Positions 9,360 through 19,295 of a DNA stretch of 64,000 nucleotides are shown here, piece after piece. Each line of letters begins with the position of its first letter. The stretch's first letter is position 1. Source of the stretch: a bacterium (lineage in GTDB: Bacteria > Desulfobacterota > Desulfocorpusculales > Desulfocorpusculum); assembly GCA_037481695.1 (NCBI GenBank), contig JBBFLE010000004.1, forward strand, positions 1-64,000, read 5' to 3'. The translations under genes and the position numbers were made by a program. A model generated the notes under the pieces. It did not search any database, had not been told where the DNA came from, and saw only the letters and a list, made by a program, of their open reading frames with translations.

Positions 9360-9770
9360 TTACACTGTCTGGATGACACCTTTTACGAAGCTCACAATCT
9401 CCTCCGCAAGCCGGACGGCCTCCCTGGCCGCATCTTGAGTATATACGCGGGCCGGGATGCTATCAGGAAGGCTGTTTGGATACCGGGTCGGTACATAGTA
9501 TCCGTCAAGGATAGACCATCTTTTTACACGCTCACCGAATTCAGCCTCCCAGCGAGAAGCACTACTACACAACCGCTCGATGGAATGCCCAATCACGATC
9601 TCGAGCCCTTGTGCGTACAGAAAAGCCTTCAAGGCCTTCTCCCCAACCTGCTGCGCGAGAAAACAGGCGATGTGATAGCCGCCCCGCTCGGCCAGGTCCT
9701 TGGCCCACTTGAGGTCCTCTTGGGCCTGCTCTAACCATCTTGCACCTTCTTCAAGTGCGCTTTTTCTCAT
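9360..9770 (-). CDS. HEPN domain protein (toxin candidate of HEPN/MNT pair)
   Basis: 136 aa, all-helical. [15 protein letters not shown] and [18 protein letters not shown] are the paired core helices of HEPN proteins; [13 protein letters not shown] is the conserved C-terminal segment of this subgroup. In known HEPN/MNT modules the HEPN partner is an RNase-type toxin or effector and the nucleotidyltransferase neutralises it. A clear R-x4-6-H active motif is not obvious, so activity is uncertain. Its start overlaps the upstream MNT gene by 20 bp, indicating coupled translation. Confidence 0.8.
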
Positions 9771-10131
9771 AAAGCACCTTCTCCTCTTGGAGGATGCGCT
9801 TCAAGAAAGGTCTCTCCTTCAAGGTTTGGAACTCCCTCGGAGTATAGCACAGGATGTCCACATCCACCGCCACGGCCAAGAGCCCGTACAGGTAGCGCAG
9901 TCTGTCCAAAAAGGCTCTATCAGTGTCCATCACCACGAGAATATCCAGGTCAGTGAAAAGGTCAGCCCGTCCGCGGGCGTATGAGCCGAAAAGACTCACC
10001 CTTTCCACCTCTTCCACAGAGGAGAGCACATCCACGATTCGCCCAAGCGCTTGCTCAAGCTCCCTCACGTAGGCCAGGCGATCCTCATCCTTGAAGATAT
10101 TTGGTTCTGGCTGCATGCGTTCCTCATCCAT
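9751..10131 (-). CDS. MNT-type nucleotidyltransferase (antitoxin candidate)
   Basis: 126 aa. The minimal nucleotidyltransferase signature is complete: [11 protein letters not shown] followed by DLDILV (GS-x-DxD), then a third acidic position in VDVDIL. Such proteins can AMPylate or otherwise modify their HEPN partner. The ATG at 10131 gives a standard-length protein with a ~35-residue N-terminal helix. It is the first gene of the pair. Confidence 0.8.
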
Positions 10132-10281: not shown

Positions 10282-10917
10282 AGCAGTCGGAAGGTGCGCA
10301 GCACCTCGGCCAGCCTGGGGTCTTCCAGGGCCAGTTTTCTCAGGGCACGGACCAGATCCTGCAACCTGCCTTACTTCTCAATGGCCTCCACAGCCTCGTC
10401 TCTGGCCTTTCGAATGATGGTGCGTCGGTCCCAATAAGCAAACCCAATGACAAACACAGTCAAGGAGGTGAAGATTGCAACCAGCATCCATAAAAAGGCC
10501 GTGAGCTGTTCAAAACGTTTGTTCATATCATCACGCAGCTCCTCAAAGCGCTTGTCCACAGCCTCGAAACGTCTGTCCACCTGCTCAAAGCGCTTATCCA
10601 CCTGCTGCATGAAGACCTGGAGGGTGGCCTCGAGCCTCATGAGCCTGTCGCGATCCTCCTGGGTAAAGCCAGGCTCTTGAGCCCATACACCACTTCCCCC
10701 CAAAAGCATGAAACCCAAAACCAAAATTATGGTCCCAAACCATCTCATGGTGTGTAAGCCCCCTTTCAAACTATACAACATGAGGGCCCTGAGGTCTATT
10801 AAAGAAACATCTAGAATGCACAAGCAACATCCAAACAAAAAACCAGATTTTCGCAAGCAGAGCCAGGGATTTCAAAGAAAATTTACCCAAAACAGCTTTG
10901 AGCTGAAATGAGTAAAA
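10282..10917. repeat. Large direct repeat, copy A (about 636 bp)
   Basis: It matches 12015-12650 at a constant offset of 1733 bp. The central part, including the whole 125-aa gene, appears identical. Single-base differences are confined to the edges (for example GGAAGGTGCGCA against AGAAGGTGCACA on the left, and a few changes after the CAGGGATTTCAA on the right). No terminal inverted repeats or transposase are visible. Confidence 0.9.
10371..10748 (-). CDS. Small coiled-coil membrane protein, copy A
   Basis: 125 aa from the ATG at 10748, which has AAAGGGGG about 10 nt upstream; the open frame extends further but without such a site. Signal peptide (residues 1-23, ending VWAQ), then a heptad coiled coil built on VDKRFEQVDRRFEAVDKRF, then one membrane span (AFLWMLVAIFTSLTVFVIGF) and a basic/acidic tail. 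This resembles small coiled-coil membrane proteins of unknown function that are common near toxin-antitoxin and defence loci. An identical protein is encoded at 12104-12481. Confidence 0.7.
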   Translation of the reverse strand: MRWFGTIILVLGFMLLGGSGVWAQEPGFTQEDRDRLMRLEATLQVFMQQVDKRFEQVDRRFEAVDKRFEELRDDMNKRFEQLTAFLWMLVAIFTSLTVFVIGFAYWDRRTIIRKARDEAVEAIEK

Positions 10918-12014: not shown

Positions 12015-12650
12015 AGCAGTCAGAAGGTGCACAGCACCTCGGCCAGCATGGGGTCTTCCAAGGCCAGTTTTCTCAGGGCATGGACCAGATCCTGCAACCT
12101 GCCTTACTTCTCAATGGCCTCCACAGCCTCGTCTCTGGCCTTTCGAATGATGGTGCGTCGGTCCCAATAAGCAAACCCAATGACAAACACAGTCAAGGAG
12201 GTGAAGATTGCAACCAGCATCCATAAAAAGGCCGTGAGCTGTTCAAAACGTTTGTTCATATCATCACGCAGCTCCTCAAAGCGCTTGTCCACAGCCTCGA
12301 AACGTCTGTCCACCTGCTCAAAGCGCTTATCCACCTGCTGCATGAAGACCTGGAGGGTGGCCTCGAGCCTCATGAGCCTGTCGCGATCCTCCTGGGTAAA
12401 GCCAGGCTCTTGAGCCCATACACCACTTCCCCCCAAAAGCATGAAACCCAAAACCAAAATTATGGTCCCAAACCATCTCATGGTGTGTAAGCCCCCTTTC
12501 AAACTATACAACATGAGGGCCCTGAGGTCTATTAAAGAAACATCTAGAATGCACAAGCAACATCCAAACAAAAAACCAGATTTTCGCAAGCAGAGCCAGG
12601 GATTTCAAGGAGAACTTACCCAAAACAGCTTTGAGCTCAAATGGGTAAGA
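12015..12650. repeat. Large direct repeat, copy B (about 636 bp)
   Basis: Second copy of the block at 10282-10917. The two copies bracket the non-coding block and the DUF2283/DUF4258 pair. Identity in the centre with divergence only at the ends is what gene conversion or selection on the coding part would leave; simple neutral decay after duplication would scatter differences evenly. Confidence 0.9.
12104..12481 (-). CDS. Small coiled-coil membrane protein, copy B
   Basis: 125 aa from the ATG at 12481, identical to the protein at 10371-10748: signal peptide, RFEQVDRRFEAVDKRFEEL coiled coil, one transmembrane helix and a charged tail. Upstream sequence, including the Shine-Dalgarno, is also the same. 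It sits between the DUF2283/DUF4258 pair and the second HEPN/MNT pair. Confidence 0.7.
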   Translation of the reverse strand: MRWFGTIILVLGFMLLGGSGVWAQEPGFTQEDRDRLMRLEATLQVFMQQVDKRFEQVDRRFEAVDKRFEELRDDMNKRFEQLTAFLWMLVAIFTSLTVFVIGFAYWDRRTIIRKARDEAVEAIEK

Positions 12651-12680: not shown

Positions 12681-13052
12681 TCACATCAGTTCTTTCCAAA
12701 TCCTGTTGTCACCGCTTAGTGGAACCAGTTCCCGCAAGGCGCCACGCAAAAAACCGGAATGTTCTGATAGCATCCTCCTTAGCTCCTCCACGGTATAAGC
12801 AAAAACCTCTACCGGCAAGGAGCAGGACCCAAAGGCATCTGCATACTCAGAGATGCGTTCGAACCAGAGCCCCATGGAATGCTCCTTTAGCACTATGAGC
12901 AGGTCGGCATCGCTGCTGGGTACAGCCTCTCCACGGGCCAGGGAACCGAACAATCCCACGCACAGGACCCTGTGGTCCTCCACCATAAGTCTCTGGGCAC
13001 ACTGGATCAGTTCGGCTACGGCCCGATTTTTATCTAGAAAGGCGATCCGCAC
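12681..13052 (-). CDS. MNT-type nucleotidyltransferase, second HEPN/MNT module
   Basis: About 124 aa from the GTG at 13052; the frame extends upstream but that part lies inside the HEPN gene and does not fit the family. Signature [11 protein letters not shown] then SDADLLIV gives GS-x-DxD. It overlaps the HEPN gene end by about 23 bp, so translation is probably coupled. Here MNT is the second gene, opposite to the module at 9.4-10.1 kb. Confidence 0.75.
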
Positions 13053-13422
13053 AGAACCGAAGGATCGCCTCTGCACAGCAGATGGCCTCCTGGCTGTCGG
13101 ATTCAATGTAGTAGTCAGCCGGTTTGCCATAATCAAATCCATTGGGGTAGCGCGTGGGAATGTAAAAGCGATCCAAAATGCGGCCGCAATTTACCAGGTC
13201 CTGCGTAACTCCAGACTCAGGAGGCAATTCTTCCAGAAAACGCTTTATGGAATGCCCCCAGGCTTCACCACCTAGGTGCTGGTACAGGGCCCTCAGGGCC
13301 TTCTCGGCGGCCTGCTGAGCACTGAAGCAGGCCCACTCATGGTATCCTTCGGTCAGGTCGTGACGCGCGTGATCAAGGTCACGCTGTGCCTGCTCGAACC
13401 AGTCTCTTGCCCGGCTGCCCAC
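13030..13422 (-). CDS. HEPN domain protein, second HEPN/MNT module
   Basis: 130 aa from the GTG at 13422, chosen for the GGGAGAGG directly upstream. [16 protein letters not shown] and [17 protein letters not shown] are the HEPN core helices; [19 protein letters not shown] is the conserved C-terminal part. About the same length as the first HEPN protein but clearly divergent from it, so the two modules are not recent duplicates. Confidence 0.8.
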
Positions 13423-13550
13423 ACCTCTCCCTCTGTTTCTCCGAGTTCCCAGGCCCTGAGATTGTTCCTTGAAACTGAATGGTAACCCCAATGTCTCTCG
13501 GGATCAAGGAAAGATCACCAACCAGCAACTTAGGGCACCCGCTACAGAAT

Positions 13551-14257
13551 CAGCACAGAGCACGTTAAATCAGCACAGAGCACAGGGCACAGAGCAGGCT
13601 AAAGCGGCACAGAGCCAGCTAAAGCAGCACAGGGCACAGAGCACGGAGCAAGCTGAATCAGCACATAGCACAGAGCACAGAGCAAACAAAAACGGCACAG
13701 GGCACGGAGCCAACAAAAGCGGCACAGAGCAAGTTAAATCAGCACAGAGCACGGAGCACAGAGCAGGCTAAAGCGGCACAGAGCCAGCTAAAGCAGCACA
13801 GAGCACAGAGCACAGAGCAGGCTAAAGCGGCACAGAGCCAGCTAAAGCAGCACAGAGCACAGAGCACAGAGCAGGCTAAAGCGGCACAGAGCCCGTTAAA
13901 GCAGCACAGAGCACAGAGCACAGAGCCAGCTAAAGCGGCAGAGGGCCGACAAAAGCAGCACAGAGCACGGAGCACAGAGCAGGCTAAAACAGCACAGGGC
14001 ACAGAGCCACCAAAAGCAGCACAGAGCAAGTTAAATCAGCACAGAGCACGGAGCACAGAGCAAAAGAGAAAACCTTAAAGCCCTGAAAAGCGGCACAGGG
14101 CCCGTTAAATCGGCACAGAGCACATGGCACAGAGCCACCAAAAGCAGCACAGAGCCAGCTAAAGCAGGGAAAACCTTAAAAACGAAGAAGCAGCACATGG
14201 CACGGGGCAAGAGAGAAAAACCTTAAAACACTGGAAAGCAGCACGGAGCACGGGGCT
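13551..14257. repeat. Tandem array of GCACAGAGC-type repeats
   Basis: About 0.7 kb built from a 9-base core GCACRGAGC joined by short linkers such as CAGCTAAAGC, AGGCTAAAGC and AAGTTAAATC. In the middle (about 13760-13930) a higher-order unit near 54 bp recurs with few changes. The right part contains longer linkers with CCTTAAA. Open frames across it are low-complexity (Cys/Ala/Leu) and not credible genes. Spacers are themselves repeats, so it is not a CRISPR array. Confidence 0.9.
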
Positions 14258-14768: not shown

Positions 14769-15278
14769 ATGGCATCCGGAAGCCATCTTGTGGACAAGCT
14801 GGAGAAATGGGTTTCCCGGATCCCGGGGCTCAGGACCTACCAGGAGCGGGAGCACCGCCGGGAAACAGACAAGCGGGTCCGAGAACAACTCAACTCCAGG
14901 CTGAGGCTGGTCCTGGAGGAGCTCCGGGTACTGGAAAGGCGTATTGCGGATTCAGGAGCCCTGGAGCTTCTGCCAGAGCTTGACAGGCTCTGCTCCAGCT
15001 TGCAACAGCTCTCTGATACCATCCTCTATGCAGCCTACGGGTACGGAGGTCTCCTGGACCTGGAGAAGATCAGGGAGGAGCAACTGGCCAGGCTATATGA
15101 GTTTGATCTTTACCTCATGGATGATGTGCAGGCCATGGAGGAGGAGGCCCGTTGCCTGGCGAGCGCAGCCCCGGGCAAGGAGGGTTTCAGGCGCTCCTTG
15201 ACCGAACTGGAAACCAGATGCCGTCTCCTGCAGGAGCGCTTCGAGAGAAGACGCGATTACATGACCAGAGTCGAATAG
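14769..15278 (+). CDS. Coiled-coil protein of unknown function, first of SPFH trio
   Basis: 169 aa. The ATG at 14769 is preceded by GGAGGGG; the longer open frame has no ribosome site. The protein is almost all helix: charged N-terminal segment ([19 protein letters not shown]), then Arg/Glu/Leu heptads ([20 protein letters not shown]), a small Gly/Tyr break ([20 protein letters not shown]) and a C-terminal coiled coil. It has no signal peptide or membrane span, so it is cytoplasmic or peripheral. I do not recognise the family. Its position ahead of an SPFH protein recalls PspA-type partners of YdjI, but the sequence is not clearly PspA. Confidence 0.7.
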
Positions 15279-15318
15279 ACTGCCCCCCAAGGAGGGAAGA
15301 GGCTTCAGGGAGGTTCCC

Positions 15319-16464
15319 ATGAGTCAGTTCCTGGAGGTCATAGAATGGTTCGATGAAACAGGCACAGAGATGGTGCACAGGATTCCCGAGAGCGGTTCCG
15401 CAGAGGTCAAGTTCGGGGCTCAACTCATTGTCAGGGAAAACCAGGCCGCGGTCTTTTTCAGGGACGGCAAAGGCTATGATGTCATAGGCCCTGGACGCCA
15501 CACCCTGTCCACCTTGAATTTGCCTGTTCTGACCAAGATGTTGAGCCTGCCCTTCGGGTTCAAGAGTCCTTTCAGGGTTGAGGTGCTCTTCGTGAACCTG
15601 AAGGTCTTCACACATCTCAAATGGGGGACCAGGGAGCCTGTGGCCTTCAGGGACAAAGAGCTTGGGGTCCTGCGCTTGAGGGCCTTTGGCCGTTACACCC
15701 TCAGAGTGGTTCAGCCCCTCCTGTTTGTAAATACCCTGGTGGGAACCCAGGGCATTTTCACCACAGAAGACATCTCCGATTACCTCAGAGATGTCATAGT
15801 CTCCAGGTTCAACGATCTTTTGGGGGAACAGCTTTCCTCGGTCTTTCAACTGCCAGAGCGTTACGATGAACTTGGTGTTGCCCTCAAGACAAGGGTTACC
15901 CAGGATTTCAACAAGTACGGGGTTGAATTGCTGGACCTCTTCATAAACAGCATCACACCCCCCGATGAAGTACAACGCATAATCGACGAACGAAGCTCCA
16001 TGGAGGCCGTGGGAGACCTAAATGCCTTCTTGAAGTTCAAAGCCGCCAAGGCCCTGGAAGAGGCAGCCAGAGGAGCAGGCACTGCAGAGGGAGCCGCTAC
16101 GGCAGCCTCATCGGGCATGGGGCTGGGGGTGGGGGCAGGCATGGGAATGATGCTTCCCGGCATACTGCTCAAGAGCATGAAGCAACAAGGTGATCTTCAG
16201 GTCCCAAGCATCCAGTGTCCCAAGTGCTTTGCCACCACCTCTGCTGAGGCCAGGTTTTGCCCGGCCTGCGGGTATCAGCTTCTCAAGGCCAATGCCTGTT
16301 TGCGTTGCGGGGCTGACCTGCCCCCAGAGGCCAATTACTGCATGCTTTGCGGGGCCAAGGTGGAGAGGGTTCAAAGAAGCTGTCCCAAGTGTGGAGCCGC
16401 TGCCCTGGCAGAAGCCGTTTTCTGCAATCAGTGCGGGGAAAAACTACCTGAACTGACTCCATGA
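15319..16464 (+). CDS. SPFH-domain protein with three C-terminal zinc ribbons (YdjI-like)
   Basis: 381 aa. Residues ~1-250 form an SPFH/Band-7-type domain of the virion-core/YdjI group ([35 protein letters not shown]). Then comes an Ala/Gly-rich hydrophobic linker with [16 protein letters not shown]. From residue 300 there are three zinc ribbons (CPKC...CPAC, CLRC...CMLC, CPKC...CNQC). Bacillus YdjI works with PspA in a membrane-stress response; a similar membrane-scaffold role is likely here. Its stop overlaps the next gene by 4 bp. Confidence 0.8.
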
Positions 16465-17918
16465 TGCGCCTTGTTCTTTCTTGTCCCCACTGCGGAGCCC
16501 AGATCGACTCCCTGGAAGAGGAGCATGTGGTCAGATGCAGCTTTTGCTCCTCCAAGCTCCTGGCCTCGGTTCAGGGAGGTTCACCGGCTTACAGCATTTC
16601 CCCCAATCTCACCGAGCCTGGAAGGGTCAGTACCATGCTGGCCCAGCGCCTAAGAAAAGAGAGCATGGACCCTTCTGGGCTGACCCAGGTGATGCTCACT
16701 CATCTGCCCTTCTGGAGGCTCCAAGCGATCTCCTACAGATGGATCTTCGGGACAAGAAGCATGGGCAAACCCGATCCCTCAGAGCTATTGCCTCCTGCTT
16801 CCGAAAGGGTGAGGGAGCTTGTGGTGCGGCCCCTGGACCACACCATAGCGGCCTCCAGACTCAAGCTGGTGGAATTGCCCAGTCTGGGGGTCAGGGCCCA
16901 GGTTCTACCCCTGAATCCTCTGACACCGGGGGAGGTTAAGGAATCCTTCCTGCCTGTGGAAACATCTCGCCAAGAGGCCCTCGAGGCCTTGAAGAGACTC
17001 GCTCAGGCCTACCCTCAGCCCCATGGGCTCAACCCGGAAATGGTATCTGAGAGCCTGGTGGGAGCAAGGCTTACCCTGATCTTCTTGCCTGTCTGGAAGG
17101 GGGTGGTGCACACAAGAGAAGATGAGCATCATTTTTTTCTGGATGGGGTGGATGGAAGATTCCTGGGCAAGTCAAAGGCCTCTTCTCTTAGGCCCCCGAG
17201 CTCACAACCAAAGACTCGAAACTTGCAGCTGGGAGAGCTCAAATTGCTTCCCTTTCGATGCCCCATTTGCGGATGGGATCTGCCTTTCCGCCCCCAGAGC
17301 CTGCTGCATCTATGTCCCAGCTGTTTGAGGCTGTGGGAAGGACATGAGGGGAGCTGGAGGCAGGTGGCCTATGAGGTGGCATCACCCCCGCAGGGGCAGG
17401 CCTGGGACAAGATGCTTTGGGTGCCCTTTTGGTGCATAAGGTGCAGGTTCTCAGATGGTAAGAAGTCTGTTCAGAGCGCCTCTGAACTGAGGGGACTGGC
17501 CCTGCAGAGCAGATGGGCCTCTGGCCAAACACCCAGCCAGGAGCCGGCCCGACTATATGTGCCGGCCATGCGCCTTCCAGACCCCAAGGTGAGCATGAAC
17601 CTGGCAGTCAAAATCACAGGGGCCCAGCCCAGCATGCAACTGTGCAGATTCCCCCAGGGACTCAAGGTGGACTCTGCAGGGGCCAGCCTTGCTGCCCGAG
17701 ACGCGCTCCAGATGGCCCTGCCGGTCCTGGCAGGCCTGCTGCCTTTCAGGAACCGACAGCTCCTGGAATGGCTGGCAGCAGTGAAGCCTCAAATGGGGGA
17801 GCCCCAAGTAAGGTTTTTGCCATTTATTAGAAAGGACATCTTCTGGGTCCAGGTACACACCAATGCCAGCTTTCCTCATAACCCAAGGTGTGCGGACCTG
17901 ATGGTGGAAAAGCGGTGA
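16461..17918 (+). CDS. Multi-zinc-ribbon protein of unknown function, third of SPFH trio
   Basis: 485 aa. N-terminal zinc ribbon (CPHCGAQI...CSFCSSKLL), a long middle region with [10 protein letters not shown], and a second ribbon (CPICGWDL...CPSCLRLW) at about residue 268. Then [11 protein letters not shown] and a C-terminal domain ending in [15 protein letters not shown]. There is no signal peptide and no clear membrane span. The ATGATG start overlaps the SPFH stop, so the two are almost certainly made together. It may play the part of B. subtilis YdjG, also a zinc-ribbon neighbour of YdjI, but I cannot claim homology. Confidence 0.7.
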
Positions 17919-18853
17919 ACAGGACACACTCCTGGTCAGAGACATGGATTTCAGCAGAGGATTTTTTCTCCAGATACTCCGGGATCATACCGGATTTCGA
18001 TTCATTTTTGGCCAGCCTCAAGGCCCCAATTCCCCAGAGCATCAGGATAAATACCCTGATGGGAAGCCCGGAAGCAACCCTCAGGACCCTGGTGGCAGAA
18101 GGCCTCAAGCCCATCTCCACCCCCTTGGGCCCGGAGTTTGTGGTGGTGGAGGGCCTGGAAAGCCCCGGGCGGCTTCTGCTTCACTTCACAGGCCACATAT
18201 ACTCCCAGAGCCTGGGCTCTGGAATTCCGGCCCTGGCCCTGGCCCCTGGGCCCGGGGATCTGGTCCTGGACATGTGTGCAGCTCCTGGAAGCAAGACCAC
18301 CCAGATGGCGGCCATGATGAAAAACCAGGGTAGGATAGTGGCCAATGAACCCTACACCAAGCGCCATCCAGGCCTGCTGGCCAACCTGCACCGTATGGCG
18401 GTAACCAATACCGTGGTGACCGCTTACTCGGGCCAGGATTTCCCCATGAGAGTCCGTTTCAGCAAGGTTCTGGTGGATGCACCATGCTCCGGAGAGGGAA
18501 ACGGCCGAGTGGATTCCCAGGGCCGTCTGGTGGGCACAACCCCGCGCCAGGGCGATCTACAGGAATTACAGTACAGGCTGCTTTTGAGGGGATTCGAGCT
18601 TCTGGAGCAGGGAGGGGTCTTGGTTTATTCCACATGCTCCTATGATCCTGGGGAAAATGAAGCTGTGGTGGACAGGCTCTTGAGGGAGAGGGAGGCCAAG
18701 CTGCTTCCCATAGAGCTTCCCATTGCCCACGACCCCGGAATAAGTCAGTGGAAGGGATTCCAATTCAGTAAGGAGCTCACCAATGCCTGGAGGATCTATC
18801 CCCACAGGCTGGACACAGTGGGATTCTTCCTGGCCAAGCTCACTAGAGCCTGA
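17915..18853 (+). CDS. rsmF: 16S rRNA cytosine-C5 methyltransferase, RsmF/NOP2 family, catalytic part
   Basis: 312 aa, GTG start overlapping the previous stop (GTGA), with GGTGGAAAA upstream. SAM-binding motif DMCAAPGSKTTQMA, the releasing Cys in VDAPCSGEG (motif IV) and the nucleophile Cys in YSTCSYDPGENE (motif VI) are all present. It adds a methyl group to C5 of cytosine in 16S rRNA. RsmF is usually ~460-480 aa with a C-terminal PUA-like domain; here that domain is a separate, overlapping gene. Confidence 0.85.
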   Translation: MNRTHSWSETWISAEDFFSRYSGIIPDFDSFLASLKAPIPQSIRINTLMGSPEATLRTLVAEGLKPISTPLGPEFVVVEGLESPGRLLLHFTGHIYSQSLGSGIPALALAPGPGDLVLDMCAAPGSKTTQMAAMMKNQGRIVANEPYTKRHPGLLANLHRMAVTNTVVTAYSGQDFPMRVRFSKVLVDAPCSGEGNGRVDSQGRLVGTTPRQGDLQELQYRLLLRGFELLEQGGVLVYSTCSYDPGENEAVVDRLLREREAKLLPIELPIAHDPGISQWKGFQFSKELTNAWRIYPHRLDTVGFFLAKLTRA

Positions 18854-19295
18854 GGCCAGAAGATCCCTAGAGGCGTATTTCCTGGATCGCTTCGGAGTGA
18901 GGCCCCAGGCCCTGGCCGGGCTTTCCTTCATGAGCAAGGGCCAAACTGTTTACGCTCTTTCCGCCCTTCCAGAAAGCCAGGAAGTTTCGGCCAGGCTGCG
19001 GGTGGTATCAGTGGGGCTTCCCTTTGTGAGAATCGTGGGACGCTACATGAAGCCCACCTCTGCTGCACTGAGGCTCCTGGCAAAAGAGATCTGTTGCAAC
19101 AGGATGAGCCTGGAGTTGAACCAGGCCTTGGAGCTGGTACGGGCCGGCCAGATAGAGTTGGCCCACTCCCTGAAAGAGGGTTACGTACTTTTGGAGATTC
19201 CAGGCCTGGTCCTGGGATGTGGCCTGGCGCTACCTGGCAGAATCAAGTCCCAGATCCCCCGCAGGGAAATCAGAGCCCTGCTGGGAGGAAGATGA
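18783..19295 (+). CDS. PUA-like RNA-binding domain of RsmF, as a separate gene
   Basis: 170 aa, offset by one frame and overlapping the methyltransferase gene by 71 bp. AAGGAG sits 7 nt before the ATG, a good reason to treat it as a real start. From residue ~25, ARRSLEAYFLDRFGV, then GQTVYALSALPES, VGLPFVRIVGRYMKP and GLVLGCGLALPGRIKSQIP match the layout of the C-terminal domain of RsmF-like enzymes. It probably binds rRNA together with the catalytic subunit. A simple frameshift of a fused gene is the alternative. Confidence 0.65.
   Translation: MPGGSIPTGWTQWDSSWPSSLEPEARRSLEAYFLDRFGVRPQALAGLSFMSKGQTVYALSALPESQEVSARLRVVSVGLPFVRIVGRYMKPTSAALRLLAKEICCNRMSLELNQALELVRAGQIELAHSLKEGYVLLEIPGLVLGCGLALPGRIKSQIPRREIRALLGGR

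Follow-up and report, generated by a model that had tools for sequence, protein, structure and literature searches.

The window, a stretch of 64,000 nucleotides from a bacterium of the genus Desulfocorpusculum (Desulfobacterota; contig JBBFLE010000004.1), contains three open reading frames in one direction at positions 14769-17918, here called CC, SPFH, and ZNR. The genes of this locus and the two that follow them are:

14769..15278, + strand: CC, 169 aa, all-helical, distant relative of NF047596 (LIMLP_15305 family)
15319..16464, + strand: SPFH, 381 aa, Band_7_1 (YdjI-type), three zinc ribbons
16461..17918, + strand: ZNR, 485 aa, unclassified family, two tandem zinc-ribbon/beta units
17915..18853, + strand: RsmB/F-type rRNA methyltransferase (PF01189, E 1e-45), GTG start
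18783..19295, + strand: PUA-like domain protein (PF13636, slightly under the cut-off), after the methyltransferase

The preliminary description had presented the first three genes as adjacent or overlapping and co-directional, and this arrangement was confirmed: CC and SPFH are separated by 40 bp, the SPFH stop and the ZNR start share 4 bp (ATGA), and all three lie on the + strand. The GTG start of the methyltransferase in turn overlaps the stop codon of ZNR (GTGA). This overlap, together with a weak likeness of the ZNR zinc ribbons to Rpo12 and ribosomal S27, could be taken as the mark of a translation or RNA module, with nucleic acid bound by the zinc ribbons and the coupled RsmF-type methyltransferase as functional partner. 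However, the ribosomal matches are generic and limited to the zinc-ribbon stretch, and the methyltransferase adjoins ZNR only in genomes of the window's own family, so that we consider this explanation very unlikely. For the same reason the methyltransferase was dropped as a fourth member; it is probably a neighbor of the module, and the PUA-like protein is a neighbor outside it.

In the surroundings of the operon, a simple consensus scan found no sigma-70-like promoter on its 5' side, and candidate Rfam elements at the locus were dropped. A defense system was ruled out, as PADLOC gave no match of weight, and clustering of neighbors beyond the trio was uninformative because antisense ORFs dominated. 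Just 5' of the trio, positions 13553-14167 hold a long degenerate minisatellite of GCACAGAGCA.. units with periods of ~54 and 169 and 80-83% matches. Overlapping ORFs at 12681-13491 (- strand) encode a HEPN protein and an MNT-type nucleotidyltransferase, likely a HEPN/MNT toxin-antitoxin pair, and another nucleotidyltransferase-like ORF is found at 9751-10131. A direct repeat (10282-10856 and 12015-12589; 98% identical, 1733 bp apart) carries a duplicated 161-aa ORF.

SPFH matched PF13421 (Band_7_1) with E 4e-65 and 219.8 bits, against a curated cut-off of 24. When the same profile was applied at E<=1e-20 to 14 control genomes, B. subtilis was the only one matched, which places SPFH, by profile, in the YdjI type and agrees with the resemblance to YdjI proposed earlier. 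The zinc ribbons ascribed to this protein were also found, three in number with six CxxC, at the C-terminus. A hydrophobic, Gly/Met-rich segment of low complexity spans about residues 262-285, its Gly/Met-rich part running from residue 266, and no transmembrane segment was detected in SPFH (maximum KD19 1.52). Flotillins and HflKC share the SPFH superfamily with this protein but belong to other SPFH families; the protein described here fits Band_7_1 best and has neither a membrane hairpin nor a transmembrane helix.

ZNR was assigned to no family of Pfam or NCBIfam and gave only generic zinc-ribbon matches. It consists of two tandem units, each combining a CxxC-x14-CxxC zinc ribbon with a beta-rich PYW/PFW domain. 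The earlier label of a multi-zinc-ribbon protein thus holds for the ribbons, with "multi" amounting to two; both are of the CxxC-CxxC form, and all eight cysteines are invariant across 44 homologues. The two halves of ZNR can be aligned with one another (hhalign E 1.2e-14), which marks the protein as a single zinc-ribbon and beta unit duplicated internally. None of 44 ZNR proteins exceeded KD19 1.67, and no transmembrane helix was seen in them. The predicted structure (pLDDT 90, pTM 0.88) matched no solved fold in a Foldseek search of the PDB, and a plasmid search with ZNR as query returned nothing informative. In one family (f14: L105, L106, L107, L117), ZNR is split, its place after CC and SPFH being taken by a tandem of three shorter genes.

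The only family match of CC was to NCBIfam NF047596 (LIMLP_15305, E 5.6e-12), an uncharacterized family of Leptospira. The match covers most of CC but scores 45.9 bits, far under the cut-off of 210, and CC is therefore placed outside the family as a distant homologue by profile similarity. In the AlphaFold2 model (pLDDT 79), CC is predicted to fold as a four-helix bundle preceded by a short, amphipathic helix at the N-terminus; the helical nature assigned to this protein earlier was thus retained, while "coiled-coil" is, going by the model, a loose name. No PDB entry matched the model at E<=0.001 in Foldseek, and no transmembrane segment was found in CC. A relation to TelA was also considered and rejected (hhalign probability 0.3%, no detectable relation). 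Conserved motifs of CC comprise YxxRE..RExDK and DTIRxAsYGYxGxF, and the most conserved motif adjoins and enters a low-confidence loop of the model at residues 88-102. In a family in which CC occurs without SPFH (f46), 7 of 23 conserved positions were kept in the two sequences compared; because these copies have lost most conserved positions, the motifs may serve contact with SPFH, which the comparison weakly suggests. A wide CC alignment search of genome contigs gave nothing informative, and with a narrower alignment nearly all hits were Desulfobacterota MAGs.

To describe the distribution of the three families, we surveyed 297 genomes of Desulfobacterota, three of which belong to the window's class, using profiles built here for ZNR (A6) and CC (A5) and PF13421 at E<=1e-20 for SPFH. 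SPFH was found in 104 genomes, ZNR in 94 (88 by a first single-sequence search), and CC in 24. SPFH and ZNR occurred together in 91 of the 297 genomes (Fisher 9e-58), and wherever the two lay on one contig they were adjacent and co-directional with SPFH upstream (83/83). CC and SPFH occurred together in 19 genomes, and in all 19 they were adjacent, with CC directly upstream. The association of SPFH with ZNR and with CC is thus far beyond chance. The named relatives are Desulfobacterota ("Deltaproteobacteria") MAGs. In two genomes (G027 and G078), ZNR lies on a contig other than that of CC-SPFH and among different neighbors, which shows that the two dyad genes are separable. It is the SPFH-ZNR dyad, and not the trio, that forms the invariant core. 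The co-occurrence anticipated by the preliminary description therefore stands for both gene pairs, whereas the trio as a core does not, since the larger clade has no CC.

A tree of 54 SPFH domains, constructed with IQ-TREE and including other phyla as outgroup, bears on how the two arrangements arose. The 29 SPFHs of loci lacking CC form one clade (98/79) nested within a grade of 19 SPFHs from trio loci, and the SPFHs of other phyla fall outside this Desulfobacterota grade. Because the trio SPFHs are basal and the CC-less pairs form a single nested clade, the simplest history is an ancestral trio from which CC was probably lost once; as the root depends on long outgroup branches, this direction is likely rather than certain. 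The core function does not require CC, which the larger clade lacks, and this protein is probably an ancestral yet dispensable addition. One genome carries what appears to be a scar of the trio (L141:6000-6260, also G221:C46:19375-19610), in which the first 35 CC codons are fused to the last ~55 ZNR codons where the two share a short sequence match, and SPFH and the remainder of both genes are gone; this may be a one-step deletion of the trio or a MAG misassembly.

We further investigated the relation of the locus to PspA, which was called by PF04012 over the cut-off and found in 39 of the 297 genomes. Of the 91 dyad genomes, 84 lacked PspA, as did 23 of the 24 CC genomes; the window's genome, reported as 100% complete, is among those without a PF04012 match. 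The apparent anticorrelation with PspA was not significant (p 0.06-0.34), and the absence of PspA is therefore best described as independence, not replacement. The earlier suggestion of an independent scaffold accordingly fits in this respect. Of the two outcomes that the preliminary description had named as refuting it, rare co-occurrence of the families and a first protein that is ordinary PspA, neither was observed.

In B. subtilis, YdjI links PspA to the membrane together with YdjG and YdjH (PMC8581546), and the Bacillus set comprises PspA, the zinc-ribbon protein YdjG, YdjH, and the SPFH protein YdjI, with the genes ydjFGHI (PMC8581546, PMC11237479). The locus described here shares with it a PF13421 SPFH protein that has a low-complexity region and ends in a zinc ribbon but has no transmembrane helix, as well as a zinc-ribbon partner and a helical protein encoded first. 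In contrast to Bacillus, the genome lacks PspA, the set includes no transmembrane gene of the YdjG/YdjH type, SPFH bears three zinc ribbons, the partner is soluble and tandemly duplicated, the first protein is predicted to be an unrelated four-helix bundle, and the gene order is not the same. YdjG is described as having two zinc ribbons, an NTF2/YpeB-like domain and a transmembrane segment; ZNR has two ribbons and no transmembrane segment.

These likenesses could be taken to mean that the locus is an ordinary Psp/YdjFGHI system with CC as a diverged PspA, given the same type of SPFH, a helical protein in first position and a zinc-ribbon partner in the published layout (PMC11237479, PMC8581546). 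However, PspA_IM30 (PF04012) was absent from the Pfam matches of CC and from those listed for 28 homologues, the long helical hairpin of PspA is replaced in the model by a four-helix bundle, and neither PspA nor Vipp1 appeared among the best 50 PDB matches of the CC model. In addition, no PspA/IM30 is linked to the locus, and CC and PspA occur independently, one genome (G134) holding both. CC was rejected as a PspA on these grounds, as the preliminary description had expected, and we regard an ordinary Psp system as highly improbable.

Relatives of the dyad were also found in other phyla. In Paracoccus, Vibrio, Comamonas, and Tsukamurella, the gene 3' of SPFH encodes a zinc-ribbon protein to which the first half of ZNR is homologous (hhalign E 2.3e-12 over 186 columns). 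This homology to the TFIIB-type SPFH partner extends beyond the zinc ribbon, and in these genera, as in Pseudorhodobacter, a PYW-domain zinc-ribbon protein directly follows a Band_7_1 SPFH, the position that ZNR holds here. These relatives carry a C-terminal transmembrane helix (KD19 2.2-2.8 for four of them), which ZNR lacks. By sequence comparison, therefore, membrane-anchored proteins related to ZNR follow SPFH in Proteobacteria and Actinomycetota. On plasmids of Paracoccus and Pseudorhodobacter (L143, L150, L151), the order TelA, DUF2927, SPFH, zinc-ribbon membrane protein is conserved; in these Rhodobacterales TelA and DUF2927 precede SPFH where CC does so here, and the Paracoccus SPFH (Band_7_1 + GYF_2) ends in GYF_2 rather than in zinc ribbons. 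Vibrio and Comamonas have only SPFH and the zinc-ribbon protein. Across these contexts and that of Bacillus, a Band_7_1 SPFH and a zinc-ribbon partner thus recur while the adjoining helical gene differs. Our literature search gave nothing of use on SPFH in combination with TelA or with zinc-ribbon proteins of the TFIIB type, and no paper linking SPFH with toxic anion resistance.

Taken together, the locus holds a genuine gene module of deep conservation, one of whose families is unclassified. It is a variant of the YdjI kind and not a new kind of system; the original interpretation as a membrane-stress scaffold is partly supported. We consider it somewhat probable that the module is a PspA-independent, YdjI-like scaffold with the SPFH-ZNR dyad as its core and an exchangeable helical partner. 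As expected from the SPFH family, SPFH protomers with three zinc ribbons apiece would assemble into a ring or cage at the inner membrane, on its cytoplasmic side. ZNR, which is translationally coupled, would regularly accompany SPFH as a soluble protein, probably docking on the assembly or capping it. CC would be the ancestral helical adaptor, binding SPFH via its conserved N-terminal and loop motifs and occupying the slot beside SPFH that is taken by PspA in Bacillus and TelA in Rhodobacterales. Because CC, PspA, and TelA each adjoin SPFH, the helical partner appears exchangeable. Membrane attachment might be provided by the hydrophobic Gly/Met-rich segment of SPFH and the N-terminal helix of CC, and the complex might act in envelope stress. 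Counting against this reading are the lack of transmembrane segments in all three proteins, the negative promoter scan, the absence of CC from the larger clade and the genomes in which the dyad is split.

The lack of transmembrane segments in SPFH and ZNR also fits the main rival explanation, in which the dyad is a hub for protein quality control or assembly: the ribbons bind clients or a protease, the cage isolates them, and membrane stress is incidental. SPFH cages are known to organize proteases, as HflKC does with FtsH, and the tails of SPFH and ZNR are rich in zinc ribbons. In addition, the authors of a Psp survey proposed chaperone-like roles for band-7 partners (PMC11237479). However, no protease or chaperone was a conserved neighbor in the examined loci, where clustering was noisy and dominated by antisense ORFs, and we consider such a hub rather unlikely.

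A broader pattern may be tentatively considered, in which the SPFH-zinc-ribbon dyad is constant across a class of bacterial SPFH systems and the helical slot is swapped among the unrelated PspA, TelA, and CC. PspA would then be one of several partners of YdjI-type proteins, and CC with the duplicated ZNR would represent a new PspA-free branch. Within this branch, the structure of ZNR would be informative, as the family is unclassified, confidently modeled, and has no solved relative. YdjI has so far been studied as a helper of PspA, while its relatives described here occur widely, mostly without PspA, and have another partner that hardly varies. A scaffold separated from PspA would thus offer a clean system for asking what the SPFH-zinc-ribbon dyad does alone.
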